Assembly (NCBI GenBank): GCA_003551665.1
Contig: PUNE01000146.1
Coordinates: forward strand, 1 to 64,000
Direction of reading: 5' to 3'
Origin: Halobacteroidaceae bacterium
GTDB taxonomy: Bacteria; Bacillota; Halanaerobiia; B1SED10-174
Length of the DNA: 64,000 bases
Position 1 is the first letter of the stretch. The number at the start of each line of letters is the position of its first letter. Both the position numbers and the translations under genes were made by a program. Under the pieces are notes generated by a model. It was not told the origin of the DNA, did not search any database, and saw only the letters and a program-made list of their open reading frames with translations. Shown piece after piece: positions 22,045 through 47,130 of the stretch.

Positions 22045-22893
22045 CTAAAATTCAGCAGGCATCTGTTCTAATTGCTTAAGGTCGAAAACCGGCCCATCTT
22101 TACACACGTAATAACGCCCTATATTACACCGCCCACACTTTCCCAGTCCGCAGGACATCTTCATCTCCAGGGTGGTAATGATATCCGCTGGATGGATGCC
22201 CGAATTTTTCAGTTCTTCGGTAATAAACCTGATCATAATCGGTGGACCGCAGGTGAAATAAACTGTATCAGGTTGGTTCAGGTCCAGTTCTTCGTTTAAT
22301 AATTCGTGGGGATAGCCCACACAATGCACCCAGCCCTCACACTCCTCGTCAATTGTATACTTGACCATTGTATTGGGAGAATTTTCCCAGGAGGAAAAAT
22401 CGTACTTGTACAGCATATCCTCGGGGGATCGGAAGGCAAGGAGCATTTGAACACGCCCGTATTGATCCCTGTTCTTATCGTCCAGGACATAATTTATGAG
22501 GGACCTCAGCGGAGCAAGACCGATACCTCCTGCAAGAAAAACCAGGTTTTTGCCCTTGACCTCTTCAAAGGGGAAATTGTTTCCATAAGGTCCCCGAACA
22601 CCAATCTGGTCCCCTTCCCGCATATTGTGAATAGCTTCGGTTACAAGACCGGTTTCCTTAATGGAAATATCGAAGTAATCTTCTTCCGTAGGGGACGATG
22701 CAAACCCAAAGGGGGCTTCTCCAAGTCCGAAAACTGTCAGCTCAACAAACTGCCCGGGGAGAAACTTAAACTTTTTCCTGACTTCTTCATCCAGGAGTCT
22801 GATCCGGAATGTTTTAATATTCAGGTTTGACCCTGTTTCCTGGGTTACCTTTATTATCTCTCCCCTGTGGGGCAAAAGATATTTATCCACCAC
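22045..22893 (-). CDS. FAD/NAD-binding oxidoreductase subunit (FloxA / anaerobic sulfite reductase B-like)
   Basis: Ferredoxin-NADP-reductase-fold subunit, 282 residues. FAD-binding segment FLPGQFVELTVFG with APFGFASSP, NAD-binding GGIGLAPLRSLI and FTCGPPIMIRFI, and a C-terminal 2Fe-2S site in MSCGLGKCGRCNIGRYYVC. Such subunits take electrons to or from NAD(H). In the order hdrC-hdrA-mvhD-FloxC-FloxB-FloxA it matches the NADH-dehydrogenase module of Flox-Hdr complexes. GTG start overlaps the preceding gene by 11 bases. Confidence 0.87.
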   Translation of the reverse strand: MVDKYLLPHRGEIIKVTQETGSNLNIKTFRIRLLDEEVRKKFKFLPGQFVELTVFGLGEAPFGFASSPTEEDYFDISIKETGLVTEAIHNMREGDQIGVRGPYGNNFPFEEVKGKNLVFLAGGIGLAPLRSLINYVLDDKNRDQYGRVQMLLAFRSPEDMLYKYDFSSWENSPNTMVKYTIDEECEGWVHCVGYPHELLNEELDLNQPDTVYFTCGPPIMIRFITEELKNSGIHPADIITTLEMKMSCGLGKCGRCNIGRYYVCKDGPVFDLKQLEQMPAEF

Positions 22894-23920
22894 TCTTCAC
22901 CCCCTCTTCATCTTTGAGGTGTTTTTCTGCGGTTTTAAGAATAACCCGCAAATCAATATTAACCGGGCACTGGCTTATACACCGCCCACAGGCCGAACAG
23001 GCTGGAACGCCCTCAAAGTTATGGGGGTGATAGGAGAATTTGTGCATTATTCTCTGCCGGGTTCGCTGGTCCTGGGTTTCCCGGGGATTATGCCCCGATC
23101 CGTGCTTGGTAAATAACGGGAACATGCAGGAATCCCAGGTTCTCCACTTGTCTATCTCTTCCTCTCTCTTTTCCCAGAAAAACCCGAAACAGAAACAAGT
23201 GGGACAATAATAGGTGCAGACACCGCAGCCCAGACAATTAGCAGCAACTTCCTTCCAAAAAGGAGCATTGAAAGCCACGAGTTCTGGAAAGGGAATGGGC
23301 ACTTCAATTCCAATTTTGGTATCCTCAAATCCTGACTGCCAGTCCTTTTTCAATCTTTCCAGTTCCTCTGAGTTACCGTCGGGCAGGTCAGCAAAAAACT
23401 CTTCCAGCTCTCCTGCACGGACATCAAACCAGAGCCGTTCTCCATCGTCGTACATATAAACCGGAATATTTTCCGCATCCAGAGGATCTATGCCCAGGGA
23501 ATCGCAGAAACAGTTCTCCTGTCTTTTGCTGCACCCCAGCCCAAACATCACGGTATTTTCCAGCCTTTTTTCAAAGTAAGTGTCCGTGAAGTCATTATCC
23601 AGGAAAACTGGTTTAAGGATGTCAATGGCCTTCAGATCGCAAGAACGAACCCCGAATATTAGTGTTTTTCGATCTCCGGTTTCAAATACTTGTTCGCCGC
23701 TTTTTTCTTCCCCCAGTCTTTCATTCTGGGGAAGAAAGAACTTCTTCGGGGGGGTATCGGGCTGTCGGTCAAGGAAGATCTCATCAAAATCCTCAACCTG
23801 GTGATATTCCACACGCTCCTTTTTGCCATATTGGCGAATTACCGGCGCAATAATTCGAAACTTGTCGTTCAGTTTTTCCAGCAATTTCCCCAGTTCATTT
23901 TTCCCAATTACTTTTAACAC
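22883..23920 (-). CDS. 4Fe-4S dicluster subunit (FloxB / anaerobic sulfite reductase A-like)
   Basis: Iron-sulfur subunit of 345 residues. Two ferredoxin-type clusters near the C-terminus (CLGCGVCTYYCPTCFCFGF and ACSACGRCISQCPVNID). The N-terminal half resembles subunit A of anaerobic sulfite reductase and the FloxB electron-transfer proteins, with RSCDLKAIDIL and GLGCSKRQENCFCDS. It likely relays electrons between the FAD subunit and the Hdr core. GTG start with GGGGG upstream. Co-transcribed and overlapping with FloxA. Confidence 0.85.
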   Translation of the reverse strand: MLKVIGKNELGKLLEKLNDKFRIIAPVIRQYGKKERVEYHQVEDFDEIFLDRQPDTPPKKFFLPQNERLGEEKSGEQVFETGDRKTLIFGVRSCDLKAIDILKPVFLDNDFTDTYFEKRLENTVMFGLGCSKRQENCFCDSLGIDPLDAENIPVYMYDDGERLWFDVRAGELEEFFADLPDGNSEELERLKKDWQSGFEDTKIGIEVPIPFPELVAFNAPFWKEVAANCLGCGVCTYYCPTCFCFGFFWEKREEEIDKWRTWDSCMFPLFTKHGSGHNPRETQDQRTRQRIMHKFSYHPHNFEGVPACSACGRCISQCPVNIDLRVILKTAEKHLKDEEGVKSGG

Positions 23921-23936: not shown

Positions 23937-24779
23937 CTAATCCAGAAATCCCTGTTCGCTATCATCAAGCCTGTAAGTAGCGAACAAAGTTTTTTCTTCA
24001 GGATTCAGACCTGGTTCAAACTGGAAAACATCCCTGGCTGCCCTGTAAAGGTGCTTGGTGAGGGCTCGCATATTGATGCCCTCCGGGCAGGCTATTTCAC
24101 AGGCTCCACAGTTGATACACCTTCCTGCCATATGCATCGCCCGCATCAGGTGAAAGGTAAAGTTGTCCCGTTTGCCAATGCTGCTACCAACCCACTGAGG
24201 CTGGTTGCTGTCAACAAAACATTCATCACAGGCGCAGACAAAACATGCTTCCCGGCAGGCATAACAGCGTATGCAGCGGGAAAATTCTTTCTGGAAATAC
24301 TCAAACCTTTCCTCAGGGCTCATGTCTTCCAGTTCGTCCGCAATTTCCACTTCAATTTCTTCCTCCCTTGGTTGTCCAATTTCCAGGTCAACCACAACGG
24401 GATTGCGGACACCACACTCTTCGCAGGCATCATTTTCCTCCAGGCCCTCACAATCATTGATGCCGATGATAAAGATATCTTCTCGCTTAATCAGTTCCTC
24501 GGCAAGGTAGACCGTTATTGCCCTTGTATCACACGGTTTGGCCACAATCCCTGTCTTACTGCCCTTGTAATCCAGAAGGTACTTGGCCAGCATCATATCG
24601 CATTCTGGAGTAAACAGCAATTCTTCGGCCCTTTCGGGCTCGGTAACAAATATCGGTGTTATTTCGCCGGTAAATACTCCGCGCCCAAAACCGATAATTC
24701 TTTCCACTTTTCCCTGGGAGAGGAGTTTTTTGGCTTCTTCCTGGATATTTTTGCTGATTTCAGAGTATTTACTCTCCAC
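23937..24779 (-). CDS. 4Fe-4S dicluster protein, FloxC-like
   Basis: About 280 residues. The N-terminal part (IGFGRGVFTGEITPIFVTEP, IVAKPCDTRAITVYLAEELI) resembles electron-transfer proteins of the FrhB/FloxC kind, and the C-terminal half holds a cysteine-rich cluster region (CIRCYACREACFVCACDEC) plus CINCGACEIACPEGIN. The track starts far inside the mvhD gene; a GTG at 24779, overlapping the mvhD stop and preceded by GAGGAG, is the better start. It forms part of the electron-transfer module between mvhD and the FloxB-like gene. Confidence 0.83.
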   Translation of the reverse strand: MESKYSEISKNIQEEAKKLLSQGKVERIIGFGRGVFTGEITPIFVTEPERAEELLFTPECDMMLAKYLLDYKGSKTGIVAKPCDTRAITVYLAEELIKREDIFIIGINDCEGLEENDACEECGVRNPVVVDLEIGQPREEEIEVEIADELEDMSPEERFEYFQKEFSRCIRCYACREACFVCACDECFVDSNQPQWVGSSIGKRDNFTFHLMRAMHMAGRCINCGACEIACPEGINMRALTKHLYRAARDVFQFEPGLNPEEKTLFATYRLDDSEQGFLD

Positions 24780-25233
24780 TGGCCATCTCCTCCTCTCTGC
24801 GGGCAAAACCCCTGCCATCAAAACCTTCCCAGGGGCCAACCTCTTTGATCCGGTTAACCACCCGCTCAACAATGGCAGCAAACCTCTTTCCTTCTGAAGC
24901 AGAACACCAGGTAAAATTAACTCTTTCCTCGGCTATTCCGGCGTACTGCATTAATTCTTTTAACATCAAAAACCTTCGGCGGGCATAATAGTTCCCGTCC
25001 AGGTAATGACAGTCTCCAGGGTGGCACCCGGAAACCAGGATCCCATCAGCTCCTGAGTTAAAGGCCCTGATCAAAAGGAAGGGATCAATCCGGCCCGAAC
25101 AGGGAACCCTGATCACCCTGATTTGCGGTGGATACTGCATTCTGCTGCTTCCTGCAAGATCTGCTGCAGCATAACTGCACCAGTTGCATAAAAAGGCCAG
25201 AATTTTAGGTTCAAAGTCTTCCTTCGCAGTCAT
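24769..25233 (-). CDS. MvhD/FloxD-type hydrogenase iron-sulfur subunit
   Basis: 154-residue member of the MvhD family, whose 2Fe-2S centre links an electron donor module to HdrA. Family text: ILAFLCNWCSYAAADLAGSS, RVIRVPCSGRIDPFLLIRAF and ADGILVSGCHPGDCHYLDGN. It abuts hdrA with no gap (25233/25234). No hydrogenase large or small subunit is nearby, so the donor is more likely the NADH-linked Flox module than H2. Confidence 0.92.
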   Translation of the reverse strand: MTAKEDFEPKILAFLCNWCSYAAADLAGSSRMQYPPQIRVIRVPCSGRIDPFLLIRAFNSGADGILVSGCHPGDCHYLDGNYYARRRFLMLKELMQYAGIAEERVNFTWCSASEGKRFAAIVERVVNRIKEVGPWEGFDGRGFARREEEMASGE

Positions 25234-28200: not shown

Positions 28201-28302
28201 AGAATTTTCAACAAGGTAAACTGGTACCCCCATTTCCCCAAGGTCGAAGGCGGCCTGGATTCCAGCTATACCTCCTCCGATTACCATAACCGGTTTAGCC
28301 AT
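25234..28302 (-). CDS. hdrA: Heterodisulfide reductase subunit A-like, double-length electron-bifurcating flavoprotein
   Basis: Very large HdrA, about 1,020 residues. First unit: FAD motif VIGGGIAGIQAAFDLG, the HdrA cysteines in FPTNDCSTCILAPKISDC, an inserted ferredoxin domain (CTGCGECIEKCPVKV; CGICEKICDKKAIDY) and a GVFVCHCGNNIGGVVDV stretch. Second unit: another FAD motif GGGVSGMTAALQLADIGFPV. The C-terminus adds a 2[4Fe-4S] ferredoxin (CMSCRNCIEVCPYQAID; CKGCGSCASVCRPHA). HdrA proteins bifurcate or confurcate electrons at FAD. The ATG at 28302 is preferred to the upstream GTG codons. Some HdrA proteins carry selenocysteine; here those sites are cysteine. HdrC precedes it; no HdrB gene is present. 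Confidence 0.92.
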   Translation of the reverse strand: MAKPVMVIGGGIAGIQAAFDLGEMGVPVYLVENSPSLGGRMAQLDKTFPTNDCSTCILAPKISDCYNHEMVTTYTYTDVLDIQGKEGDFKVRVRKNPRYVIEDACTGCGECIEKCPVKVLDEYNEGLVKRKGIYKYYDQGVPNVVTIDPEHCLKLNKDRCGICEKICDKKAIDYKQKPEETELSVAAVIYAAGYDAFQGEMVGEYGYLRHPNVITSLEYERYLSASGPTEGHIQRITDGEEAKKIAFIHCAGSRDVRTDCNYCSAVCCMYSIKQALVTREHSEAIEAIDLYYMDVRAYGKGFERYYNTAEATKGVNFRRSRVARVEEDSDTRQIIVKGLDEEGRFSEEKYDLVVLGVGLKPNSQVTEMMKRLKIRVNKYGFAATDELDPLATSCKGIFTCGVAAGPKDIPESVIEASGAAAQAAIIARRDGESPKEKEKEKKEISYRFVDNEPVRIGVFVCHCGNNIGGVVDVPRVTEQSEHLPFVEHSEEIKYLCSPDNLEMIGDRIKEKNLNRVVVASCTPRTHETLFRQAVAWGGLNPYLLVMTNIRDQNSWVHREEKEKATRKALDLIKGAVAKAKKTRALERSRVDKLNKGFVIGGGVSGMTAALQLADIGFPVVLVEKENELGGNANKLLFTPEGRPASRIVEELREKVLANDFIETFTGYSVSKVDGYVGNFKLTLDPEKGKEGSQKEIEGGVVVVATGAAELETEEYLGGQHEKVLSQLQLEEKIREKSIPEDLNRVFMIQCVGSREEPREYCSRICCNQAVSNAIYLKERYPEMDITILYRDIRTYGYYEDNYRKARQLGVKFVRFDLEEKPVVEDKNGKIKISYRDPVVGVEKEEEADLLVLSKAIVARENSDVLSKQLKVPLNEDGFFLEAHVKLMPVDFATDGVYLCGLAHGPKNLSESISQARAAAGRAAVVLVREYLLTEAMVAEIDPDLCMSCRNCIEVCPYQAIDISEWTGKAEVNKILCKGCGSCASVCRPHAADLHGFSNQEIVEEMEAIFADREPAPLKGEGL

Positions 28303-28738
28303 CTTTTTCACCACCACTGGTCAGTTCTGAAATTACATCTTTGAGCTCCTTTTTCTTTTCGTGGTGTTCTTGAAGGACCTGCAGGCGATATTCCCAAAGG
28401 GCCTGGTCCACATTTTCGATGTCTTTCAGCATTTCCGGGGGATAATATTGGTTTTCAACTGCCATTTCTCTTAATACCCTGAGGATATCAGCAAATTTCA
28501 CATTCTGCGGACAGTGGGCAACACACCTGTGGCATTGAATACACTTCCACAGTTCTCTGCTCTCGAGAACTTCCTTTTTCTGCCCCATGGTTACCCTGCT
28601 GATTATCAGCCTGGGGTTAAATTCCTGGTCCAGTTCGCTAATGGGGCAGGTGGCAGTACAGCTTCCACAACTGTAGCAGAGATAAATATTTTCCCCTCCG
28701 GGGCGACCCGCAACCTCTTTTCTAAAATTAGCCTCCAT
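28295..28738 (-). CDS. hdrC: Heterodisulfide reductase subunit C-like 4Fe-4S protein
   Basis: 147-residue protein with two classic CxxCxxCxxxCP cluster motifs (CYSCGSCTATCPIS and CIQCHRCVAHCPQN), as in HdrC. It lies between metF and hdrA with gaps of two or fewer bases or overlap. In known acetogen clusters HdrC and HdrB bridge HdrA to MetVF; here HdrB is missing, so HdrC may contact MetVF directly. That contact is inference. Confidence 0.9.
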   Translation of the reverse strand: MEANFRKEVAGRPGGENIYLCYSCGSCTATCPISELDQEFNPRLIISRVTMGQKKEVLESRELWKCIQCHRCVAHCPQNVKFADILRVLREMAVENQYYPPEMLKDIENVDQALWEYRLQVLQEHHEKKKELKDVISELTSGGEKDG

Positions 28739-28740: not shown

Positions 28741-29664
28741 TTATTCCACCTCCGGTCTGGGGTACAGGCCTGCTCTCTCGATGATTTCGGGGGTGATTTT
28801 TTCCCAGCCCACCGGCATCAGGTGTATCCCCCGAACCCCTTCAACTTTCCTGACCCTCTCAATTATTTCAATTGCTACCCGGACTCCTTCTTCTTCAGGA
28901 TCCTCGCATTTTTCCATCCTTTCAATCAGGGAGTCGGGAACGTCCATACCCGCGACATCTGTTTTCATCATCCGCAGGGCTTTTACTGACTTGGCCGGTA
29001 GAATACCCGCCATAATATATACCTTTTCGTGGATTCCCCTTTTGCGGACTTCCTCCATCCAGTATTCAAACTTTTCCAGGTTATAAATAGCCTGGGTCTG
29101 GATAAACTGTGCACCCGCTTCTATCTTTTTCTCCACCTTCATCATCTGCATTTCAAAAGGATCTCCGAAGGGGTTTGCTGCAGCTCCAATAAACATTCTG
29201 GGAGGTACTTTCATCTCTTTACCGTTCAGCAAAACCCCATTGTGCACCATGTCGTGGACAGCACGAATTAATTGAACACTGTCCAGGTCAAAAACATTTT
29301 TCGAACCCGGATCCATGCCAAAACTCTGGTGGTCACCGGTCAGGCAGAGAACATTATTTAGACCCAGGGAACTTGCCCCCAGGATATCGCTCTGCAGGCC
29401 GATCCTGTTTCTGTCCCGGGTGGTAGCCTGGATTATCATTTCCAGGCCTTCTTCTTTTGCAAAATGAGCTGCAACAATACTTGACATCCTAACAATGGCA
29501 GTCTGATTGTCGGTTACGTTGACCCCATCTACATAACCAACCAGTTTCTGGGCCTTTTTTTTGATAAATTCAACGTTGGCCCCAATCGGAGGGCCGAGTT
29601 CACTGCACACTACAAAGTGGCCCGCTTCTAACTTTTTCTGTAACAGGGACATTGGTTCACTCAT
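28741..29664 (-). CDS. metF: Methylenetetrahydrofolate reductase, large (catalytic) subunit
   Basis: FMN/FAD TIM-barrel enzyme interconverting methyl-THF and methylene-THF. Family text includes VCSELGPPIGANVEFIKKKA, NVTDNQTAIVRMSS, GLNNVLCLTGDHQ, FIGAAANPFGDPFEMQM, GAQFIQTQAIYNLEKFEYWM and VYIMAGILPAKSVKALRMM. Length 307 is normal. It overlaps metV by 8 bases and is followed by hdrC. With methyl donors entering through MttB and MtgA, the likely direction here is methyl-THF oxidation; the family itself works both ways. Confidence 0.95.
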   Translation of the reverse strand: MSEPMSLLQKKLEAGHFVVCSELGPPIGANVEFIKKKAQKLVGYVDGVNVTDNQTAIVRMSSIVAAHFAKEEGLEMIIQATTRDRNRIGLQSDILGASSLGLNNVLCLTGDHQSFGMDPGSKNVFDLDSVQLIRAVHDMVHNGVLLNGKEMKVPPRMFIGAAANPFGDPFEMQMMKVEKKIEAGAQFIQTQAIYNLEKFEYWMEEVRKRGIHEKVYIMAGILPAKSVKALRMMKTDVAGMDVPDSLIERMEKCEDPEEEGVRVAIEIIERVRKVEGVRGIHLMPVGWEKITPEIIERAGLYPRPEVE

Positions 29665-30331
29665 CGTAATACTCCTTATTGGTTAATTTTCTGGGGCCGC
29701 CGTCCCGGTAAGGCTGCCAGTCTTTGGGGTCTTCATAGACCAGCAGTTTTTCCAGAAGTCCTATATCCTTCAGGCGATTATAAATCAGTTCCCACCCGCA
29801 ATCAATATCATCATCGACTTCGCATTTTCCGTCCTGCGAACCACCACAGGGCCCATTTAAAAGGCTCTTGGAACACCGTGCAACGGGACAAACCCCTCCA
29901 AAACGATCCAGGACGCATTCACCACAGCCAATGCAGCGTTCGGCCCATTCCCCAACTGCCGTTGTCGCTCCATAGAACGAGGTGTTCAATCCAGGGTAGA
30001 CAATCTTCAGGGGATGCCTCTGAACAATATGCTGAACGCCAACGCCACAGGCCAGGGAAAGGATGATATCATGGTCCTCAATTTTTTCACCAATATCATC
30101 AATGAATTCGAAGTCACACTGGCGGGTTATGGTATCGGTAGAAATAGTTACCTTTTTCCCTTTTTTCCCGTAGTATAGTTTAAGCAGGTTGGCCAGGGCT
30201 TCTACTTCCCTTTCACCGCCAGCAAGACTTACGGTAACACAGGTTCCACATCCTGCAATCAGGAGGCTCTCCCAGTCTTCTCCAAGCATTTTAATTATTT
30301 CTTCAGCTTTTTTCTGCTGACCTACAATCAT
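29657..30331 (-). CDS. metV: MetV: zinc/4Fe-4S partner of methylenetetrahydrofolate reductase
   Basis: About 224 residues, matching the MTHFR C-terminal-domain protein MetV of acetogens. Cysteine-rich region CIGCGECVLDRFGGVCPVARC, then LLNGPCGGSQDGKCEVD, and an N-terminal IAGCGTCVTVSLAGG. MetV binds clusters and connects MetF to its electron donor. The ATG at 30331 overlaps the previous stop as ATGA, with GGAGGGAGGGA upstream; the track start lies in front of that RBS. Confidence 0.92.
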   Translation of the reverse strand: MIVGQQKKAEEIIKMLGEDWESLLIAGCGTCVTVSLAGGEREVEALANLLKLYYGKKGKKVTISTDTITRQCDFEFIDDIGEKIEDHDIILSLACGVGVQHIVQRHPLKIVYPGLNTSFYGATTAVGEWAERCIGCGECVLDRFGGVCPVARCSKSLLNGPCGGSQDGKCEVDDDIDCGWELIYNRLKDIGLLEKLLVYEDPKDWQPYRDGGPRKLTNKEYYDE

Positions 30332-31668
30332 AGCTGTCCCTCCCTCCACCTTTTTAGGAGGTTTGCCAGGTCCTGTTCCATGGGAGGAGATAACCTTTCA
30401 AACCGGACCCTGTCTTCACCAAGATCAAGACTGGCCAGGGTTTCATTGACTTCGTCAACTATCCGCTGCCCTCGTTGATCTCCTTCCAGATGTTTGCATG
30501 ATTCCTCAAAGCAACCCAGGATCAAAATCCTGTCTTCCGGTTCCTGAAGGGATCCATAGATTTCCTCTTTTTTTATGCTGCAGGAACAGGGAATTTCCCT
30601 GCTTATAAAACCGTCCATATTCTCTCGGGGCATTTTTTTCCGGGCAGTTTCGGCTGAATTCTCACACATCAAAACCTGAAGACCCCACTTTCTCTCCTCT
30701 TCTTCCTCTCCTCCTAAAGAAATTGCTCCTGCCGGGCAGTGAGAAATACAACCATTACAACCCCAGCAGGCATCCTTTAATATTTCCATGGAATCCTTCT
30801 CTTTATTTTCTTCCAGAGCGGCGTGGGGACAAACCCGGTAACAGGTGTAACACAGAATACATTTACGGTCGTCAACCTCCCGGTCTTCTTCAACCAGGGG
30901 TTCCAGGTTAAATTTAAAGGCCTCTATTTCTTCAAGAGTATATTTTATTTCTTCTTCAAACCCGGCAAGCCCATTTGGACTGCGGGCACCGCCAACTGCA
31001 TAAATACCCCGCCTTCCGGTGAGAGTCGGAGCAAGGTAAACATTTTCCGCCTGCAGATAACCCTCTTCCCCGGGAATGATCCTTAAAACCTGGGCCAGTT
31101 TTTCCAGTTCTGGAGCAGGTTTAAGAAGAGGAGCGGTGTAAATTTTGCCCTCTACTTCCATTGTTGCCCCACCTCTCTGGTAGGTTAACCTGTCGGGGGG
31201 TGAAATCTGCAACCTGTCCTCCTCGTACCGGAAAAAGGCCACTCCTGAACGCCTGGCTTCCTCGTATAACTGGTCAGTTCCCTCCGTAAAACGAAGGGAG
31301 CGGTAGAAATAATAAACCTGGCGGGAAGCATTATCCCTGATAGCCTGCAAAGCTTTTTCCAGGCCAATGCGGTTGACATAAGCCGGGGCAATTTCTTCAT
31401 GGTCCTGGATAAAAATCAGGTTTTTTTCTTGCTCCGGCTCCAGGTTCTCCCGAAAAACAGGAAGGTCGGCAAAACTCTGTTCCTGTTGGTGAGGGAGGTT
31501 AATAACAATGGCCCTGGTTTTTTCCTCGTGGACTTCCCCATTTACCCGGAAGCGAAGGAAAAACTCGCCAACCTTTCCCTTGCAGCTTGTTACAGCTTCG
31601 GGAGCAACCTGTAATTGTTTCAGGGAGGGAGTTTCAACACTATCACCAAGAAATATCACGTCATACAT
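30328..31668 (-). CDS. HdrA C-half / ferredoxin / MvhD-like fusion protein
   Basis: 446-residue electron-transfer protein with an unusual build. Residues 1-250 resemble the second half of an HdrA flavoprotein (YLAPTLTGRRGIYAVGGARS) but lack a GxGxxG dinucleotide motif. Two ferredoxin clusters follow (CILCYTCYRVCPHAALE, CWGCNGCISHCPAGAI), then an MvhD-like C-terminal domain with GLQVLMCENSAETARKK and ILILGCFEESCKHLEGDQRG. It overlaps the HdrA-like gene before it and metV after it, so the pair probably forms a second small HdrA-MvhD unit tied to MetVF. Exact role unknown. Confidence 0.82.
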   Translation of the reverse strand: MYDVIFLGDSVETPSLKQLQVAPEAVTSCKGKVGEFFLRFRVNGEVHEEKTRAIVINLPHQQEQSFADLPVFRENLEPEQEKNLIFIQDHEEIAPAYVNRIGLEKALQAIRDNASRQVYYFYRSLRFTEGTDQLYEEARRSGVAFFRYEEDRLQISPPDRLTYQRGGATMEVEGKIYTAPLLKPAPELEKLAQVLRIIPGEEGYLQAENVYLAPTLTGRRGIYAVGGARSPNGLAGFEEEIKYTLEEIEAFKFNLEPLVEEDREVDDRKCILCYTCYRVCPHAALEENKEKDSMEILKDACWGCNGCISHCPAGAISLGGEEEEERKWGLQVLMCENSAETARKKMPRENMDGFISREIPCSCSIKKEEIYGSLQEPEDRILILGCFEESCKHLEGDQRGQRIVDEVNETLASLDLGEDRVRFERLSPPMEQDLANLLKRWREGQL

Positions 31669-32719
31669 CTGCCTGCCCTCCTGACTCGCAAAGCTGTTTT
31701 TGTTTTAAAACCCGGTAAGCAACCCTTTTTCCATCACTAATTGTTGCAGCTATATCACGGGGACCCTTAATTGATCCTGCCAGAAAGATGCCGGTTTCTT
31801 CCTCATCTAAAAGGGGGTAGAGGAAGCCGTAGGTATCCAGCTGCATGTTGAAGAGCATAGACCAGCGTTCATTTGCTGCATTGGGATGAAGGCCTTCAGA
31901 AAGGACCAGAAGATCCACATCCAGAGTTTCCATCGCACCTTCCTGCTGGTTTTCATAAAGGATGCGCAGTCCATCATCGGTATTGCTGACGTCAATTGGT
32001 TTACAATTAACATATTTGATCCCCAGTTCGTCCAGCTCGGCAAAATTAACATCGAGGAAATATCCTGCTTCCTGGAGGTCAATGAAAAATATTGTAGCTT
32101 CCAGGTCCGGGTAAAAATGTTTTAGAACCCGGGCCATCCTGTAAGAATAACCGCAACAAATTTTGGAACAGTACCGGGCCTTTTCCTGAATACTCCGAGA
32201 ACCGTTGCACTGGATAAATGCAACCGAACGGGGAATTGAATCCAGCTGTAAAATATCTTCAGGCCTGGAATGATCCGCCCTGCGGCGCATGAACTCTTCA
32301 AGCTGACTTGCCCAGATGACCCTTGTGTCATCTGAAAATTCTGGAGTTCCTGTTTCCAGGTCTGACCATTTAATAAAACCCGTAGCCAGAATAATGTTTT
32401 CCAGGTTTTCAACTTCTACAAATTCTCCATCTTTCTCCACGCTAAGAGTATAATCCCCGGGTTTACCGGTCAGATCATTGACCATCCCCTGGTAGATTAT
32501 CTCAATTTGCGGAGATTGCTGTGCGGCAAGAATTGTTTCATCTACCAGACAAAGGTTGCATTTAATACATTTATCAACCGCTTTACAGCCATAGTCCTTA
32601 ATATTACCACCCAGCGTATCAGTTTTTTCAATAAGGGTGACTTTATTGCCGGCCCGGCCCAGTTCAACGGCCGCGGTGGTTCCGGCAATTCCGCCCCCAA
32701 TTACCGCGATTCTGCTCAT
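31661..32719 (-). CDS. Short HdrA-like FAD-dependent oxidoreductase
   Basis: 352-residue HdrA-type flavoprotein: FAD motif VIGGGIAGTTAAVELGRAG, the cysteine cluster CKAVDKCIKCNLCLVDE, SVAFIQCNGSRSIQEKARYC with SKICCGYSY, and GIFLAGSIKGPRDIAATISD. It lacks the inserted and C-terminal ferredoxin domains of the 1,020-residue HdrA; those are supplied by the next gene, which overlaps it. It looks like a split HdrA whose second half was fused to MvhD. It follows the methyltransferase gene by about 30 bases. Confidence 0.87.
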   Translation of the reverse strand: MSRIAVIGGGIAGTTAAVELGRAGNKVTLIEKTDTLGGNIKDYGCKAVDKCIKCNLCLVDETILAAQQSPQIEIIYQGMVNDLTGKPGDYTLSVEKDGEFVEVENLENIILATGFIKWSDLETGTPEFSDDTRVIWASQLEEFMRRRADHSRPEDILQLDSIPRSVAFIQCNGSRSIQEKARYCSKICCGYSYRMARVLKHFYPDLEATIFFIDLQEAGYFLDVNFAELDELGIKYVNCKPIDVSNTDDGLRILYENQQEGAMETLDVDLLVLSEGLHPNAANERWSMLFNMQLDTYGFLYPLLDEEETGIFLAGSIKGPRDIAATISDGKRVAYRVLKQKQLCESGGQADV

Positions 32720-32750: not shown

Positions 32751-33548
32751 TTACTTGGCCAGCTTGCCCTCCCGGGACGCTTTTATATAATTGGTTCCAT
32801 AGGGATCCCTGTTGAGGAGAACCTCGGTGGCCCGAACCAGGCTGACAAGGTAGTTATCAAGCGGGTCAACTATAGCTGAATCAAGTCCTCTTCCCATTGC
32901 CAGGACAATGAATGCCTGGTTAAGTAGAGCCCGTCCCGGAAGTCCATAGGAAATATTACTCAGACCACAGGTTATATGGGCTCCGGTTCCCATCCGGGTA
33001 ATTCCTTCAATGGTATCCAGAGCCTGCATTCCGTATTCCCCGTTTACCGCAATAGGCTTGATCAGGGGATCTAAAAAGACGTTTTCCAGGGGCACTCCAT
33101 CCCGGTCCAGGTCATTCAGAAGTTTTTCAGCAATACCCAGTCTTTCTTCTGCGGTTTCGGGCATCCCTTCGTCCCCCATGCATAGTGCAATTACCTTGGC
33201 ATTGTATTCTCTGACCAGGGGCATTATTTTACCATAACGTTCTTTTTCTGCAGTTATTGAATTAATCATTGGGGTTCCCTTGTGAGTCTTGATTGCAGCC
33301 TCCAGAGCTTCAGGGCTGGGGCTGTCAAGGGCAAGGGGTTTATCTACCACTTCCTGCACCTTTTCTACCAGCCAGAGGAGGTACTTGGTTTCCTGCTGAA
33401 CAAAAGCCCCTGCATTAACATCAATATAGTCAGCTCCACCTTCATCCTGCTTTTTGGCAATATCCTGGATATAATCGACATTACCCTCTTTCATGGCCTC
33501 GCGCATAACTTTTCTTGTAGAGTTAATCAGTTCGCCAATAATAATCAT
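32751..33548 (-). CDS. Methyl-THF:corrinoid methyltransferase (MtgA/AcsE family)
   Basis: Pterin-binding TIM-barrel protein of 265 residues. Text such as IIIGELINSTRKVMREAM, EGGADYIDVNAGAF, PLALDSPSPEALEAAI, TPMINSITAEKERYGKIMP and FLDPLIKPIAVNGEYG places it with MtgA and AcsE. In this operon the likely task is moving the methyl group from the methylated MttC corrinoid protein to THF, as MtgA does in glycine-betaine demethylation. No CODH/ACS or AcsCD genes are present in the window, which argues against a Wood-Ljungdahl role at this locus. Confidence 0.92.
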   Translation of the reverse strand: MIIIGELINSTRKVMREAMKEGNVDYIQDIAKKQDEGGADYIDVNAGAFVQQETKYLLWLVEKVQEVVDKPLALDSPSPEALEAAIKTHKGTPMINSITAEKERYGKIMPLVREYNAKVIALCMGDEGMPETAEERLGIAEKLLNDLDRDGVPLENVFLDPLIKPIAVNGEYGMQALDTIEGITRMGTGAHITCGLSNISYGLPGRALLNQAFIVLAMGRGLDSAIVDPLDNYLVSLVRATEVLLNRDPYGTNYIKASREGKLAK

Positions 33549-33602: not shown

Positions 33603-34259
33603 TTAAAAAAGCTGTTCCCTTATAACCACTCTGCCAGGTTCCACCACCAGAAAATTTTCATCCCAGGGACCCATCACTAATTTTTTCAAAAATTCCGCAG
33701 ACCCAGAAATAATTTGCATTTTCAGATCCAAAAATTCCGCAACCCGGCGAGAATAATCAATATATTTTTCTGGATCTTCCAGGCCGGGGGTTTTGATAAA
33801 AACCAGCCTCTTGTAATTTTTGTATTCCTGTTCCATTACCCACAGGGCGTTTTCTCTGCCTACTCTTTCTTTGTAATCTTCAAACTGGGTCAGAGGATCT
33901 CCCCCATGTTCAATCCAGCCCCTACTCAAATAAATGGTCCCGGGTTCACCGAAGAATTCTTCATTGTAACGTTCGCGGGAACCAAGGAGCAGGGCAATAC
34001 AATCGTGAGCCCTGGGGATAACCAGTTTCTTGGTCCTGCTTTTCAACCCCAGGGTGCCATGGCTGCAAAGGCCATAACCAAGAAGAATACAGTCAAACTC
34101 ACCAGGGGTCTCATTGATTTTTTCCTGCAGGGTTTTCTGCAGTTTGTGCGGATGACGGTGGAGCCCGTACTCCAGAAACTCCATCTCCATATCCTCTGGA
34201 GCAAAAAGCTGGATTTCTGATTTTACTGTGGAACAGGCAATTATTTTTTTAATTTCCAT
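33603..34259 (-). CDS. DUF1638 family protein
   Basis: About 218 residues. The family signature is clear: FDCILLGYGLCSHGTLGLKS, then LVIPRAHDCIALLLGSRERY. DUF1638 proteins occur repeatedly next to MttB-type methyltransferases and corrinoid genes; their function is not established, though the conserved Cys/His residues suggest metal or corrinoid handling. The ATG at 34259 overlaps the end of the hydantoinase-like gene; the longer track start lies inside that gene. Confidence 0.85.
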   Translation of the reverse strand: MEIKKIIACSTVKSEIQLFAPEDMEMEFLEYGLHRHPHKLQKTLQEKINETPGEFDCILLGYGLCSHGTLGLKSRTKKLVIPRAHDCIALLLGSRERYNEEFFGEPGTIYLSRGWIEHGGDPLTQFEDYKERVGRENALWVMEQEYKNYKRLVFIKTPGLEDPEKYIDYSRRVAEFLDLKMQIISGSAEFLKKLVMGPWDENFLVVEPGRVVIREQLF

Positions 34260-36255
34260 CACCCCAGGGCCGGCCGACAGCCGAGAATTCAATAATTGTC
34301 TCAATAAAGAGCCGGTTTTGTTCCTCTTCCCCCTCAGGAACAAAACCGTACAGATTGGTGAACTTATCTTCCCGGTGCTCCACTATCTCAATATCTGAAG
34401 CTCCCGAGTTCTCTGCTTTTTTATGCACGTGCTCTCTCCCTATCTTCCGCCCATACTGGACGGCTTCCTCCATTTCTAAGAACCCCTCCCGGCCACCGGG
34501 GGTGTAAACAAGGAAACCCCCGTGCTCCCCGGGTTTAACCACTATCTGGGTTCTCTCTATGACCTTACCGCTGACCGTTCCCACCGCATTTGCCACTTCA
34601 GCTGCTTCCGGGAGGCTGAGTGGAGCGTTGAGCCTTTCGGCAATCTGGGGGAAGTACGCTGCCACAGGAGCTCCCACAGCAATGAGGGGTATGTTCACCC
34701 GGGTGGAAAATTCGATCAACCCTTTTTCGTCTTCATCTTTTGAAAACAACTTCTTTAAAAAAAACCTGCCTCCGCTGTCTTCAAGGGATCCATTTTCTTC
34801 CTTGCACCCGACAAGAACTTCGACGAGCAATGAAGAAACCTGGAAGTAAATTTTTTCTAAAACTGCTTCCATGAAATCTTCCGGGGCTTTTGACATACGG
34901 CGAGCCATAATATTAATGCCAATTCTCGCAGCCTCTTTGTTCCAGCGGTCAAACTCTCCAGAAACATGGAGTAAATCCGTAGGGGTAAGAGAAGCCCGGT
35001 GAAGAGAGCCCACATTTACCAGCCGCCGCCAGGGGATAATTTCCGGGTCTTTTTGCAATCGACGACCAAGGTGGAAAAGGGTATGGGGGTTTTCTTTCAG
35101 TAATTCCAGCATGAGCTTCTCGGTTTCACTCAAATCCAGATTAACCGGGTCCTTGATATACACAAGGATCACAGTTGGCTGGTTTTCAATGGGAAAATAC
35201 ACTTCCTCCCAGATCTCCTTCAACTCGTCGAGTAGTTGAGGATACCTGTCTACTGCCCAGGCCAGGGGAAATACCCGCTGGGGCCCAATGGAAAGTTCTC
35301 CAGAACTTGAAACTTTTATCAGGCTGTCTCCACCGAGCCCTTCCGTAGTTATATCGGCCGCCTTAACCCTGGTCATCCAGCCACCAACACGGGCACCCTT
35401 CTGGTTGAGGGCGGGACGCCCCTCCTGGAGTATCGCTACATCGGTTGTTGTGCCACCCATGTCCACAACAACGCCTTCTTCCAGCCCTGTTAAAGCCATT
35501 GCTCCAATAATACTGGCTGCTGGTCCGGAAAGAAGGGTTTCAACGGGGCGTTCCCGGGCCATTTTTTCACTGATAAGAGTCCCGTCTCCTTTGACTACCA
35601 TCAGGGGAGCTTTTATCCCTCGATTTTGGATATTTTCTTTTACCGCATCAATAAGATTGGTAATCAGAGAAATCAGGCGGGCATTGAAAACGGCTGTAAC
35701 GGTTCTTTCCCGAAATCCAAGGTCAGAGGAAAGCTGATGCCCGCTTACCACAGGGCATCCGGTAATCTCAGAAATCAGGCGAGACACCTGAATTTCCTGC
35801 TTGGGGTTGCGGACGCTCATGTAGCCTGAAACTGCAAAAGCTTCGACTTTTCCTTCCAGAGATTTTACAGCTTCTTCAGCTTCCTGCAGATCAACCTCCC
35901 GGGTTATCCTGCCCCGGACATTGCAGCCTCCGCTGATGCTCGCATGATGGGGGGTGGGCAGGGGGCCTTCAGGTGAAAACCCAATTTGAATTAACCCGAC
36001 TTCAGCCCCCTGCCCCTCAACAATGGCATTGGTTGCCAGGGTAGTGGATAGCGAAATCATTTTGATTTCATCTAATTTATAATCTTCCGGCCACTGGTCC
36101 AAAAGCCCCTGCAGGCAATTGTCTATGGCCAGATTCAAATCATGCCTTGTTGTAACTACCTTGGTTTTGCAGAGGATCCTTCTTTCATCAAGTTCCCAGA
36201 TTACTCCGTCGGTGAAAGTTCCTCCTGTGTCAATTCCCAATGCCAGGTTTGCCAT
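34249..36255 (-). CDS. Hydantoinase/oxoprolinase-family ASKHA protein
   Basis: 668-residue HyuA-type ATP-binding protein: GIDTGGTFTDGVIWEL at residues 7-22, SLSTTLATNAIVEG, TLLSGPAASIIGAMAL and VVDMGGTTTDVAILQEG. No HyuB partner is present. In this position, between MttB and DUF1638, it is unlikely to be a plain hydantoinase; it may be an ATP-driven activator of the methyltransferase system, parallel to RACo, though this is inference. It lacks the N-terminal ferredoxin domain of RACo. It overlaps the DUF1638 gene. Confidence 0.85.
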   Translation of the reverse strand: MANLALGIDTGGTFTDGVIWELDERRILCKTKVVTTRHDLNLAIDNCLQGLLDQWPEDYKLDEIKMISLSTTLATNAIVEGQGAEVGLIQIGFSPEGPLPTPHHASISGGCNVRGRITREVDLQEAEEAVKSLEGKVEAFAVSGYMSVRNPKQEIQVSRLISEITGCPVVSGHQLSSDLGFRERTVTAVFNARLISLITNLIDAVKENIQNRGIKAPLMVVKGDGTLISEKMARERPVETLLSGPAASIIGAMALTGLEEGVVVDMGGTTTDVAILQEGRPALNQKGARVGGWMTRVKAADITTEGLGGDSLIKVSSSGELSIGPQRVFPLAWAVDRYPQLLDELKEIWEEVYFPIENQPTVILVYIKDPVNLDLSETEKLMLELLKENPHTLFHLGRRLQKDPEIIPWRRLVNVGSLHRASLTPTDLLHVSGEFDRWNKEAARIGINIMARRMSKAPEDFMEAVLEKIYFQVSSLLVEVLVGCKEENGSLEDSGGRFFLKKLFSKDEDEKGLIEFSTRVNIPLIAVGAPVAAYFPQIAERLNAPLSLPEAAEVANAVGTVSGKVIERTQIVVKPGEHGGFLVYTPGGREGFLEMEEAVQYGRKIGREHVHKKAENSGASDIEIVEHREDKFTNLYGFVPEGEEEQNRLFIETIIEFSAVGRPWGDGN

Positions 36256-36283
36256 CCCCTGACTCCTCCTCTGTTTTTTACTT

Positions 36284-37738
36284 CTAAGCCTTCAGCTTCT
36301 TCTCAGAGTCAACTACGATCTGCCTGATTTTCTCTTCAACATCCTTGGGTAATGGGTCTGGTTTGTGGGTTTCCAGGATATTAAGGACTTTATCGTTGCT
36401 TCTCTGGAAGAGATTCTTTTCTCCGTCTTTTACCCAGTTTTCATAAATCTGACGCTGGAACAATTCGGGGTAATAGGTTTCAGTTTTATAGTGTTTCATG
36501 GTATGTTCCTGGGCCAGGTAGTGCCCACCATGACCAACCTTGTCGATTACATCCAGGGCCAGAGTTTCCTCATTAACTTCAATTCCCCTGGTTATTCTGC
36601 GAGCAAATCCGATCAACTCATCGCAGATTGTGAGATATTCCAGGGATGCTGTATTTCCATGTTCGATGTAGCCAACGTCGTGGTTCAGGTTAGCACCTGA
36701 CATGGATGTAGTGAGGATGGAAATAGCTCCTTCGATTGCTGCCTGCTCATCAACAACCTTGGAATCCGTGCAGCCGCAGGTTCCAAACATGGGAATGTCA
36801 ATGTAGCGGGAAATATCCGCAAGACCAGCCTGCAGTAGGTGGAATTCCGGTGCTCCATAAGCAAACACTGTTGTTTTCATATCCATTATGGTGAAAACTC
36901 CGCCCATAATGAAGGGGCTTCCTTCGCTTGTTTCCTGGTTGAGAACAAGCCCGCTCAAACTTTCAGCAAGCCCTGTTGCAAGACCCCCTGCCATTGTAAT
37001 GGGAACGGTTCCTCCAAACATGGGGCAGGGTGTATATACAACGGGGAGCCTTTTCTTGGCACCGAGAACAAGTTTCTGGGCAGAATCTCCGGGATGCTGG
37101 AGGGGAGAAATTGGCTCGGCGTAAAGTGTCATGAAGGGGTTGCGTTGAAGTTCTTTTTCTCCTCCGGCTATTATTTCACACATCTTAATTATGTCAGAAT
37201 AGCCCTCAACGTCTATAGCGGTAATTACAATTGGTTTTGAGGTATTCAGCACCATGGCTTCAAACTGGTGCCGGTCATAAATTTCCTGGGGAACGTCCTG
37301 GACAATTCCCAGGGACATTATAAAGTCAATATTGGGGAGGGCGTCGAGAACCTTGGAGGCCATTGTAACAGTTTTCTTGCTGGTTGGAATCCGGTTGTTG
37401 GTATAGGGGTCGATAAAGAATGGAGTATCTGAGCCCGAGCCAAAATAGGCGTTATGCCCCTCCATTTCCATTACCCTTTCTCCGGTTCTGCTGTTACAGA
37501 GGGTTACTTTGGAAGGAACCGAACGCAGGGCTTTTTCTACAAGTTTTACCGGAATCCTGACCCTTTTACCGTCAACATGACATCCTGCCTTCTCCATTAT
37601 TTCCAGTGATTCTTTATCGTGATAGACTACACCTGTTCTTTCCAGAATCTCCATGGCCGCTCCCAGTATATGCTTGCACTGGTCATCTGAGAGGACCTGA
37701 AGGTCAGCAGATGCATTTATTCCGTAATTACTTCTCAT
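36284..37738 (-). CDS. MttB-family methyltransferase, second copy
   Basis: 484-residue MttB-superfamily protein without an internal TAG, so a non-pyrrolysine methylamine/quaternary-amine methyltransferase. Landmarks are ILERTGVVYHDKESLEIMEK, AYFGSGSDTPFFIDPYT and FGTCGCTDSKVVDEQAAIEG, where Gln stands at the position I expect for pyrrolysine. It forms a pair with the corrinoid gene ending just upstream (24-base gap). Substrate unknown; glycine betaine, proline betaine, carnitine, choline and similar compounds are used by relatives. Confidence 0.9.
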   Translation of the reverse strand: MRSNYGINASADLQVLSDDQCKHILGAAMEILERTGVVYHDKESLEIMEKAGCHVDGKRVRIPVKLVEKALRSVPSKVTLCNSRTGERVMEMEGHNAYFGSGSDTPFFIDPYTNNRIPTSKKTVTMASKVLDALPNIDFIMSLGIVQDVPQEIYDRHQFEAMVLNTSKPIVITAIDVEGYSDIIKMCEIIAGGEKELQRNPFMTLYAEPISPLQHPGDSAQKLVLGAKKRLPVVYTPCPMFGGTVPITMAGGLATGLAESLSGLVLNQETSEGSPFIMGGVFTIMDMKTTVFAYGAPEFHLLQAGLADISRYIDIPMFGTCGCTDSKVVDEQAAIEGAISILTTSMSGANLNHDVGYIEHGNTASLEYLTICDELIGFARRITRGIEVNEETLALDVIDKVGHGGHYLAQEHTMKHYKTETYYPELFQRQIYENWVKDGEKNLFQRSNDKVLNILETHKPDPLPKDVEEKIRQIVVDSEKKLKA

Positions 37739-37762
37739 ACTGCCACCTCTCCTTTCCTCTTT

Positions 37763-38398
37763 TTAGCGGCCCACCAGTTCGATGGCCAGATCTTTAGCCG
37801 ACGCGGCATCAGGTGCCCATCCATCGGCGCCAATTTCATCTGAAAAATCGGAAGTAACCGGGGCTCCCCCAACAATGATTTTAACCGAATCACGCAGTCC
37901 TTCTTCCTGCAAAATCTCGATAGTATCTTTCATAGCCAGCATGGTCGTTGTCAGGAGCGCGCTCATACCAACTATGTCCGGCTTGTGCTCTCTAACAGCC
38001 TCAGCAAATTTTTCTGGAGCAACGTCCATTCCCAGGTCGATAACTTCCATACCGCCGCTTTCCATCATCATTCCTACCAGGTTCTTACCAATATCGTGGA
38101 GGTCACCGGCAACTGTTCCCAGGACTACCTTGCCAGCAGAAGTCACTTCCCCTTCTACCAGAAGGGGTTTTACAAGGTCCATTCCAGAATTCATGGCCCG
38201 TGCAGCCATCAATACCTCGGGAACGTACATATCTCCTTCTTTGAATCTCTGGCCAACAACGTTCATTCCTTTGATTAAACCCTCGTTGATAATATCTGCA
38301 GGCTTTGAACCTTCATCAATAGCCTTCTGGGTTAATTCAGTGGCTCTTTCCACGTTACACTCGATAATAGCATTTTGCAGGGCTTCAAAATCTGCCAT
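37763..38398 (-). CDS. MttC-family corrinoid methyl carrier protein (copy 2)
   Basis: 211-residue B12-binding protein: an N-terminal four-helix cap (EALQNAIIECNVERATELTQ) followed by the cobalamin motif DLHDIGKNLV (His is the lower axial cobalt ligand) and GMSALLTTTM, IIVGGAPVT. It accepts methyl from the paired MttB and hands it to MtgA. It differs from copy 1 (39927-40562) at about 13 of 211 residues. Located 15 bases after mttB1. Confidence 0.93.
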   Translation of the reverse strand: MADFEALQNAIIECNVERATELTQKAIDEGSKPADIINEGLIKGMNVVGQRFKEGDMYVPEVLMAARAMNSGMDLVKPLLVEGEVTSAGKVVLGTVAGDLHDIGKNLVGMMMESGGMEVIDLGMDVAPEKFAEAVREHKPDIVGMSALLTTTMLAMKDTIEILQEEGLRDSVKIIVGGAPVTSDFSDEIGADGWAPDAASAKDLAIELVGR

Positions 38399-38413
38399 TA
38401 TTAATCTCCCCCT

Positions 38414-39904
38414 TTATTTCTTTTTGGCCTTTTTGGCCTTTTGCGCTTCACGCTCTTCAGCCTTTTCAACAACCGCGTCAATTTCTTTTTTGACCTTTTC
38501 AGAAAGAGGCTTGACCTGATGTTCTTTGAGGATTGAGTGGAGTTTTTCCCGAACTTTGTCCCCCATACTCGCTCCTCCAGCCTTTTTCTGCCATCCATCA
38601 TGACGCATCCTGTTGATCAGGGTTGGGAACCATGTTTCTTTTTTAAAGTTATCCATGGTATGGGGTTCACCGAGGAAATGCCCCCCGGGACCAACCTTAT
38701 CCACTACATCCAGGGCCAGGGTTTCTTTGTTGATTTCAATCCCCCGCATGAATCTCTTGACCATAGAAATTATTTCATCATCCATCACCAGTTGTTCCAG
38801 GGAACCAGTTGAGCCTGACCCCGTGTAACCACAATCATGGACCAGGTTCGCCCCTGAAAGAGCTGCCATAAGTATGCTCATTGCAGCTTCGCCAGCAGCC
38901 TGCCCATCAAGGAGGTGAGCATCGGTGCATCCTGCAGTACCGAATACCGGAATCTTCATATGGTGGGCAACTTCGGCAATTCCAGCCTGCATGGTGTGAA
39001 ATTCGGGGCTGCCATAGCTGAAAACAGTTGATTTCATGTCCATGATGGCATATACCCCGCCCATGATAATGGGAGTACCGGGTCTTACCAGCTGAGAAAC
39101 AATAATCCCCACCAGACTCTCTGCAACGCCAAGGACCAGGGTCCCGGCAAGGGTTGCCGGTGCTGTTGCACCTGACATTACACAGGGAGTATAAACGATG
39201 GGGATTTTATTTTTGGCTGCAAAAACAGCCTTGGCTATGGCTTCCTCTGAATGCAAAAGAGGTGAGCTTGGTTCAGAATAAAGGGCTAAAAACGGCCTTT
39301 GTTGAAGATTTTCCAGACCTCCAACAACTGCCGCAGCAATATCAGTTATGTCCTGGTACTGATCAATATCAAACCCCCAGTGGACAATGGGCTTATTGGT
39401 GTTGGATACCAGGGCTCTAAAAGCGTGGACATCAGAAAGTGTGTCGGTTACGCCGGTTGGAGTTCCAAGGTCCTGGACAAAATTAATATTGGGCAGGGCA
39501 TCGCAAACTTTTGCAACATTCTCAGTATCGCTAATAACCGGGCGGCGCCTTTCCCCCGTATAGGGATCGCGGTGGAAAGTATTGGTCGGGCCTGGCCCGT
39601 AGTAGGTTTTGTTGTCGTGGAGAACTAAAGCCTTATTGCCGAGCTGGTCGTAAAGGGTTATCCTCGAAGGAGCAGAGCGAACTGCCCATTCACTCAATCC
39701 TACAGGTATCCTTACCCTGTTACCATCAACCCAACAACCACCCTTTTTTAGTATTTCCAGTGACTCTTCATCGAAGATCTTTGCCCCGGTTCTTTCCAGA
39801 ACTTCTGTCGCTGCAGAAAAAATCTCTTCTCTCTGGGCATCGCTTAGAAGTCTGAATTTTGGGGTTTGATTAACCTTGTAACGGGACTTAACGAAATTTC
39901 CCAT
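38414..39904 (-). CDS. MttB-family methyltransferase, first copy
   Basis: About 496 residues, a clear paralogue of the 36284-37738 protein (EVLERTGAKIFDEESLEILK, YYGPGPTNTFHRDPYTGERR, FGTAGCTDAHLLDGQAAGEA). Non-pyrrolysine type with Gln at the expected pyrrolysine site. The ATG at 39904 follows GGAGAGGG and is preferred to the upstream TTG. A Lys/Ala-rich tail (AKKAKKK) ends the protein. Lies 22 bases after its corrinoid partner, so the operon opens with mttC-mttB-mttC-mttB. Confidence 0.9.
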   Translation of the reverse strand: MGNFVKSRYKVNQTPKFRLLSDAQREEIFSAATEVLERTGAKIFDEESLEILKKGGCWVDGNRVRIPVGLSEWAVRSAPSRITLYDQLGNKALVLHDNKTYYGPGPTNTFHRDPYTGERRRPVISDTENVAKVCDALPNINFVQDLGTPTGVTDTLSDVHAFRALVSNTNKPIVHWGFDIDQYQDITDIAAAVVGGLENLQQRPFLALYSEPSSPLLHSEEAIAKAVFAAKNKIPIVYTPCVMSGATAPATLAGTLVLGVAESLVGIIVSQLVRPGTPIIMGGVYAIMDMKSTVFSYGSPEFHTMQAGIAEVAHHMKIPVFGTAGCTDAHLLDGQAAGEAAMSILMAALSGANLVHDCGYTGSGSTGSLEQLVMDDEIISMVKRFMRGIEINKETLALDVVDKVGPGGHFLGEPHTMDNFKKETWFPTLINRMRHDGWQKKAGGASMGDKVREKLHSILKEHQVKPLSEKVKKEIDAVVEKAEEREAQKAKKAKKK

Positions 39905-39926
39905 TATACCCTCTCCTTTCCTCAAG

Positions 39927-40562
39927 TTAACGACCTACTAGTTCCATGGCCAGATCTTTGGCCGATGCTGCATCAGGTGCCCAGCCGTCGGCACCAATTT
40001 CATCGGAAAAATCAGATGTTACCGGCGCCCCTCCAACAATAATTTTCACCGAATCCCGTAACCCCTCCTCCTGCAGAATTTCAATTGTGTCCTTCATGGC
40101 CAGCATGGTGGTGGTTAGAAGAGCACTCATTCCAACTACGTCCGGTTTATGTTCCCTGACCGCTTCGGCAAATTTCTCCGGGGCAACATCCATTCCCAGG
40201 TCGATAACCTCCATGCCTCCGCTTTCCATCATCATCCCAACAAGGTTCTTTCCAATATCGTGCAGATCACCCGCTACTGTTCCCAGAACTACCTTGCCTG
40301 CTGTGGATACCTCTCCCTCTACCAGCAGGGGCTTGCAGATATCCATCCCAGAATTCATTGCCCGAGCAGCCATTAATACCTCAGGGACATACATATCCCC
40401 TTCTTTAAATCTCTGTCCTACAACATTCATGCCTTTAATCAAACCATTGTTAATAACATCTGCAGGGCTTGCCCCTTCATCAATGACCTTTTGGGTTAAA
40501 TCAGTGGTCCGTTCAACATTACATTCGATAATCGCATTTTGTAAAGCTTCAAAATCCGCCAT
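39927..40562 (-). CDS. MttC-family corrinoid methyl carrier protein (copy 1)
   Basis: First gene of the long operon. 211 residues starting MADFEALQNA from the ATG at 40562, seven bases after GGAGG; the track extends 11 codons into the leader. Cobalamin-binding DLHDIGKNLV and GGAPVT motifs as in copy 2, with a very similar sequence. A sigma-54 promoter lies about 280 bases upstream. Confidence 0.93.
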   Translation of the reverse strand: MADFEALQNAIIECNVERTTDLTQKVIDEGASPADVINNGLIKGMNVVGQRFKEGDMYVPEVLMAARAMNSGMDICKPLLVEGEVSTAGKVVLGTVAGDLHDIGKNLVGMMMESGGMEVIDLGMDVAPEKFAEAVREHKPDVVGMSALLTTTMLAMKDTIEILQEEGLRDSVKIIVGGAPVTSDFSDEIGADGWAPDAASAKDLAMELVGR

Positions 40563-47107: not shown

Positions 47108-47130
47108 AGTTACCTTGGAACATTTTCTTT

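Follow-up and report, generated by a model that had tools for sequence, protein, structure and literature searches.

For acetogens and methyl-oxidising anaerobes, one question is how methylene-tetrahydrofolate (methylene-THF) reductases of the MetVF type contribute to conserving energy. Hdr-linked MetVF reductases have already been described, and so have HdrA-MvhD arrangements next to metV of the kind found in T. phaeum. In the MetVF-HdrCBA-MvhD systems of Moorella thermoacetica and Sporomusa ovata, the HdrA and MvhD parts are encoded directly upstream of metVF, with AcsE before them; HdrA has two thioredoxin-reductase-like units in one chain (942 or 1487 amino acids) with its own flavins, MvhD is a separate five-Cys protein, and the complexes include HdrB. 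Pulldowns in S. ovata show that MetVF contacts HdrA, HdrB and MvhD (PMC9430772). In T. phaeum the layout is HdrA-MvhD-MetV-MetF without HdrBC, and the methylene-THF reductase activity is quinone-linked (PMC6895022); going by the descriptions in the papers, HdrA and MvhD lie directly before metV, with no HdrBC, throughout the cluster of T. phaeum, Contubernalis and 'Ca. Syntrophonatronum'. The published signature of a bifurcating HdrA flavin is the combination of E356 and K409 (PMC9430772, PMC12054007).

The window considered here is the whole analysed stretch of 64,000 nucleotides, and its host is a salt-loving, betaine-using bacterium. The operon in the window (Table 1) has the 5' to 3' order corrinoid protein, MttB, corrinoid protein, MttB, RACo-like activator, DUF1638, AcsE-like methyltransferase, HA352, HM446, MetV, MetF, and beyond MetF HdrC, large HdrA, MvhD, 314-amino-acid Fe-S protein, AsrA-like and AsrB-like proteins. 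By their domains and in line with the Flx literature, we take the last four genes, from MvhD onwards, to resemble FlxDCBA. As in Moorella and Sporomusa, HdrA and MvhD parts directly precede metVF and AcsE comes before them, but here the two thioredoxin-reductase-like units are split between HA352 and HM446, MvhD is fused to the latter, and HdrB is absent. The two reading frames share 8 bp (31661-31668) in different frames, each is preceded by a ribosome binding site (AAGGAGG and CAGGAGG), and the end of HM446 overlaps metV by 22 bp. A preliminary description had placed a 352-residue HdrA-like flavoprotein lacking ferredoxin domains, overlapping a 446-residue protein, directly before metV, and the coordinates, the overlaps and the lack of Fer4 domains all agree with it.

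Table 1. Genes of the operon in the window.
Feature	Position	Strand	Family or basis
DUF1638, RACo-like activator, two MttB-family methyltransferases, two corrinoid proteins (betaine-type demethylation)	33603..40595	-	named by reading sequences, without a family search
AcsE/MtgA-like methyl-THF:corrinoid methyltransferase	32751..33548	-	NF005719
HA352: HdrA-like flavoprotein, thioredoxin-reductase fold, FAD, CKA-C-x2-C-x2-C motif, 352 aa	31661..32719	-	
HM446: flavin-less HdrA remnant, 2x[4Fe-4S] (264-317) and MvhD/FlpD-like domain (333-440), 446 aa	30328..31668	-	
MetV, methylene-THF reductase Fe-S subunit	29657..30349	-	PF12225
MetF, methylene-THF reductase	28741..29664	-	
HdrC-like 2x[4Fe-4S] protein; no HdrB gene after it	28295..28738	-	
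Large double HdrA, 1027 aa	25234..28317	-	
Canonical 5-Cys MvhD/FlxD	24769..25233	-	
Flx-like Fe-S protein, 314 aa	23937..24881	-	
AsrA/FlxB-like Fe-S protein	22883..23920	-	
AsrB/FlxA-like FAD/NAD-binding protein, likely NAD(H) site	22045..22893	-	

HA352 consists of one FAD-binding thioredoxin-reductase domain, in which the FAD site, whose prediction had been called for, is marked by the motif GGGIAG; it has neither a Fer4 domain, nor an N-terminal Fe-S domain, nor an inserted ferredoxin domain. Over its whole length it can be aligned with sHdrA of Hyphomicrobium denitrificans (6tjr), as well as with methanogen HdrA's thioredoxin-reductase domain once the inserted ferredoxin is left out, and 6tjr is also the best fold match of its AlphaFold model in Foldseek (the models of HA352 and HM446 are of moderate quality, with pLDDT 72-76). 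At the positions of E356 and K409, HA352 has E141 and R194, both invariant in 16 of 16 aligned Halanaerobiia sequences, so that the signature is incomplete, with Glu kept and Arg for Lys; it might be that Arg does the same job at this flavin. HA352 also has a four-Cys motif, absent from the preliminary description, formed by C45, C51, C54 and C57. Eight of its cysteines are invariant (C45, C51, C57, C171, C184, C188, C189 and C239), while C54 is found in 12 of 16 sequences and is replaced by Asp in the other four. By position counted on the alignment, C57 corresponds to Cys197 of M. thermolithotrophicus HdrA, which in HdrA dimers ligates the N-terminal cluster of the partner (PMC9012536). Since that N-terminal domain is absent from both HA352 and HM446, it is plausible that HA352 holds a cluster in cis, and C45, C51, C54 and C57 probably bind a [4Fe-4S] cluster, as judged from the motif.

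In HM446 the domain matches are HdrA-like (117-325), a Fer4 dicluster (264-317) and FlpD/MvhD (333-440), and the profile of its family aligns with residues 405-636 of HdrA (5odc_A) and residues 35-121 of MvhD (5odc_D). The protein thus joins a C-terminal piece of the HdrA thioredoxin-reductase domain to two 4Fe-4S clusters and these to an MvhD-like end, in the order proposed earlier; the Foldseek search with its model returns HdrA as best match, and the MvhD domain, on which the proposal hinged, is recognised by Pfam FlpD with E=2e-14 and 53.9 bits, against a curated cut-off of 22.3. Twelve cysteines are invariant, eight of ferredoxin type and four in the MvhD domain, where Ser replaces the second Cys of CxxC. 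The FAD-binding Rossmann strand-helix-strand is deleted (LGDSVET...), locus L076 (below) showing an intermediate state, and the protein has no inserted ferredoxin domain and no N-terminal Fe-S domain. In archaeal type Ia HdrA the ferredoxin end is likewise fused to MvhD, but there FAD and the full HdrA are kept (PMC12054007).

Among 59 Halanaerobiia genomes, two separate searches find HM446 in 18 and MetV in exactly the same 18, and in all of these the HA352/HM446 pair adjoins metV, which supplies the genome count that had been proposed as a check. The 18 genomes are mutually related and do not represent 18 independent events. The order HA352-HM446-MetV-MetF-HdrC-HdrA is kept in 17 of 17 relatives as far as contigs reach; those named are Halanaerobiales MAGs. 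Over its full length HM446 has 37-80% identity among relatives, HA352 has 48-90% and MetV 60-92%. A frameshift or assembly artefact of one long reading frame was ruled out, since the 17 relatives conserve two distinct genes, in many cases spaced apart by 5 bp to about 280 bp.

In the flavoprotein tree, a branch supported at 99/97 separates HA352 and all MetV-linked HA sequences from QmoA, QmoB, sHdrA, the Moorella and Sporomusa types and ordinary HdrA; the QmoA and QmoB sequences were taken from apr loci, and sHdrA is a single long-branch sequence. The motif C-K-A-x3-C-x2-C-x2-C, formed in HA352 by C45, C51, C54 and C57 and varying in a few rows of the HA clade, is absent from the other groups. 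Nearest to HA352 outside its class is the flavoprotein of L076 (100/100), followed by fused forms. For the MvhD domain, whose tree is built on few columns, one clade for all HA-type MvhDs has a p-AU of 0.52.

QmoA and QmoB resemble the pair, in that a small HdrA-like flavoprotein stands beside an HdrA-MvhD fusion with a four-Cys MvhD domain, but QmoB (724-750 amino acids) keeps FAD and E/K, unlike HM446, and belongs to a different clade, and their neighbours are apr genes and HdrBC/QmoC, whereas the operon in the window has neither apr nor QmoC genes. Membership in QmoAB was therefore ruled out by tree and context, despite the common four-Cys pattern. Membership in sHdr was ruled out by tree (with the caveat of its one long-branch sequence), motif and operon: sHdrA shares with HA352 a size of ~350 amino acids and a single HdrA thioredoxin-reductase domain without ferredoxin domain, but has Asn at K409, where HA352 has Arg, no CKA motif, and a different clade and operon.

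The layout in the window is not unique, as the same parts occur beside metVF in other arrangements elsewhere in the phylum. In a sample of 300 genomes, 85 have MetV, and the neighbourhoods of 60 MetV places were read, plus that of L042. About 19 are of Moorella type (HdrC-HdrB-HdrA ~1487-MvhD-MetVF), one or two of them deviants, three are Sporomusa-like (HdrA 893), and 25 have a complete HA-type flavoprotein, with two more cut by contig ends. Upstream of metV, L077, L081 and L085 have a single chain HA-HM-Fd-MvhD of 931-980 amino acids, which bears out the earlier view of the pair as a split HdrA with MvhD fused to its second part, while L042 has HA-HM-Fd (795 amino acids) and a separate MvhD (158). 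Elsewhere the HA protein comes last: L078-L082, for example, have HdrA ~560 and MvhD ~140, then MetV, MetF and HA ~350, and in L083, L093, L123 and L128, among others, HdrA-MvhD fusions of 448-678 amino acids precede MetV, MetF and HA. Loci L078-L082, comparable to the T. phaeum type, have a four-Cys MvhD, as here, and an HA-family flavoprotein after metF; their HdrA keeps the N-terminal Fe-S domain and the FAD motif, their MvhD is separate and their HA has Lys at K409, whereas in the window MvhD is fused, the FAD segment is lost and HA352 is placed first. One genome of another class (L076) has the window's own layout (359 and 440 amino acids), including HdrC-HdrA-MvhD-Flx.

Next to a separate MvhD, GGGxxG is kept in the partner HdrA and the MetV-linked HA protein mostly has Lys at K409; of the MvhD fusions, all except L085 have a broken or shortened FAD segment. 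This pattern suggests that fusion of MvhD often accompanies erosion of the second flavin site, although six of the fusions keep a GxGxxG-like string and might bind a nucleotide. L103, L113 and L115 have another HdrA-MvhD fusion directly before metV, of 693-721 amino acids, with a CSYG motif, an intact FAD motif and no HA-type gene in the neighbourhood. Two Asgard matches, L059 and L060, were rejected as instances of the pair: each is a complete HdrA-MvhD fusion of the ordinary kind, with a separate HdrA next to it.

The large HdrA differs from the pair in that its first domain has equivalents of both E356 and K409, together with an inserted ferredoxin domain; its second domain has Ser at the K409 position and thus lacks the Lys. 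With its inserted ferredoxin domain and full E/K signature, it is the natural site for ferredoxin input and a better candidate for bifurcation than HA352/HM446. Larger versions with an extra insertion occur in the same operon position in L076 (1321 amino acids) and in the Halanaerobiales relative L034 (6477-10958; 1493 amino acids, against about 1030 usually). The operon has no CCG protein (HdrB), no HdrB of ordinary size was found in the ~90% complete genome, and the only PF02754 protein of that genome is a two-CCG protein of 430 amino acids on another contig. In all class relatives whose contigs reach, HdrC is likewise followed directly by HdrA. MetVF may have taken HdrB's place as partner of HdrC.

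Two tandem BCCT-like transporter genes, recognised by reading the sequence, lie upstream of the operon (45391-48738), and these together with the MttB-family genes are what would be expected for betaine use. In the same ~90% complete genome there are two RnfC, and no CODH catalytic subunit scores above cut-off. Given this lack of a CODH match and the betaine-type operon, methyl-THF is probably oxidised. The methyl-THF/methylene-THF couple has a potential of about -200 mV, and NAD+ of -320 mV (PMC6295475). It follows that oxidation by NAD+ requires a co-reductant, of which reduced ferredoxin would be an example.

HA352 and HM446 very probably constitute a split MetVF-linked HdrA-MvhD module. 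From gene order, conservation, domain content, loss of the FAD segment in HM446, replacement of K409 by Arg in HA352 and clade membership, we propose a model for its function in which the heterodimer, the occupancy of its clusters, the path and direction of the electrons and the site of confurcation are predictions. HA352 would carry the only flavin (FAD) of the pair, and HM446 would be a flavin-free wire, composed of a partner-HdrA remnant, two [4Fe-4S] clusters and an MvhD-type [2Fe-2S] domain, i.e., an MvhD and C-terminal ferredoxin arm joined in trans to the flavin subunit. The two would probably form a heterodimer mimicking the HdrA dimer, through which MetVF and the operon's own HdrC-HdrA-MvhD-Flx module would exchange electrons. 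In the cell, methyl-THF derived from the methyl groups of betaine would probably be the electron donor, and reduced ferredoxin would help its electrons reach NAD+, with energy coupling in the large HdrA, at its first flavin, and not in HA352/HM446. The contacts of MetVF in S. ovata, together with the MvhD/ferredoxin arm of HM446, favour such a heterodimer wiring MetVF, while the HdrB of the Moorella and Sporomusa complexes, absent here, counts against it; on balance we lean towards this chain as a whole. Encoded by separate genes, and without HdrB, the flavin half, the Fe-S/MvhD wire and the signature-bearing HdrA allow each role to be tested on its own.

In line with proposals made for S. ovata and T. 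phaeum, the MvhD-like end of the pair could instead couple MetVF to membrane quinone or another membrane acceptor, in parallel with the HdrC-HdrA-Flx branch, and QmoAB would then be a functional analogue. That MvhD is the mostly membrane-bound subunit in S. ovata (PMC9430772), that the T. phaeum cluster without HdrBC has quinone-linked activity, and that HM446 and QmoB have the four-Cys CEN pattern in common all speak for a membrane link, but the conserved operon has no QmoC-like or other membrane gene, the sole match to the qmoC profile in the genome is the soluble HdrC, and HA352 stands apart from QmoA and QmoB in the tree; we consider such a link unlikely.

A little less likely still is the reading of the preliminary description, by which the pair works on its own as a compact bifurcating unit; the FAD of HA352 would then be the bifurcating flavin. 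Its strength lies in the conserved E356 equivalent, in Arg194, which keeps a positive charge near the flavin, in the Lys kept by MetV-linked flavoproteins of other families, and in Fe-S exits on both sides of the pair. Both halves of the claim nevertheless fare badly: as to bifurcation, Lys is replaced in every aligned Halanaerobiia sequence and HM446 has neither an intact FAD segment nor an inserted ferredoxin domain; as to independence, within the class the pair is never seen apart from metVF, and HdrC-HdrA-MvhD-Flx, with the full-signature large HdrA, always accompanies it where the contig extends that far. Finally, the faster evolution of HM446 than of HA352 and MetV would be in accordance with a structural role, in which the pair serves docking or assembly, carries few electrons and is left over from an older HdrA-MvhD module whose place the large HdrA has taken; this is very improbable, as the 12 cluster cysteines of HM446 and eight cysteines of HA352 are invariant across families.

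A wider and more tentative proposal, which we would not rate as probable, extends the wiring model: HA flavoproteins and their flavin-losing HdrA-MvhD partners would form an undescribed heterodimeric class of HdrA and define a separate, widespread type of Hdr-linked methylene-THF reductase, which in Halanaerobiia would join HdrC-HdrA-Flx in a supercomplex lacking HdrB. By confurcation, and without CODH/ACS, this supercomplex would oxidise methyl-THF derived from betaine, with NAD+ as acceptor. A search of open-access papers found no account of the HA family motif, flavin-losing HdrA-MvhD fusions or an HdrB-free MetVF-Hdr-Flx operon in Halanaerobiales.

Other elements of the window surround the operon. 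Between a gene for a PAS/sigma-54-type activator (41069-42955) and the first corrinoid gene there is a sigma-54-like -24/-12 site, TGGTACGCTTTTTGCA, with one mismatch, at 40842-40857 on the minus strand; five such sites occur in the window, against 1.85 expected. A THF riboswitch (Rfam RF01831; 20350-20453, minus strand) lies just before the gene of a small membrane protein (19746-20291), which is probably a folate transporter. At 15296-15386, also on the minus strand, there is a selenocysteine tRNA, which fits selenoproteins such as betaine reductase.
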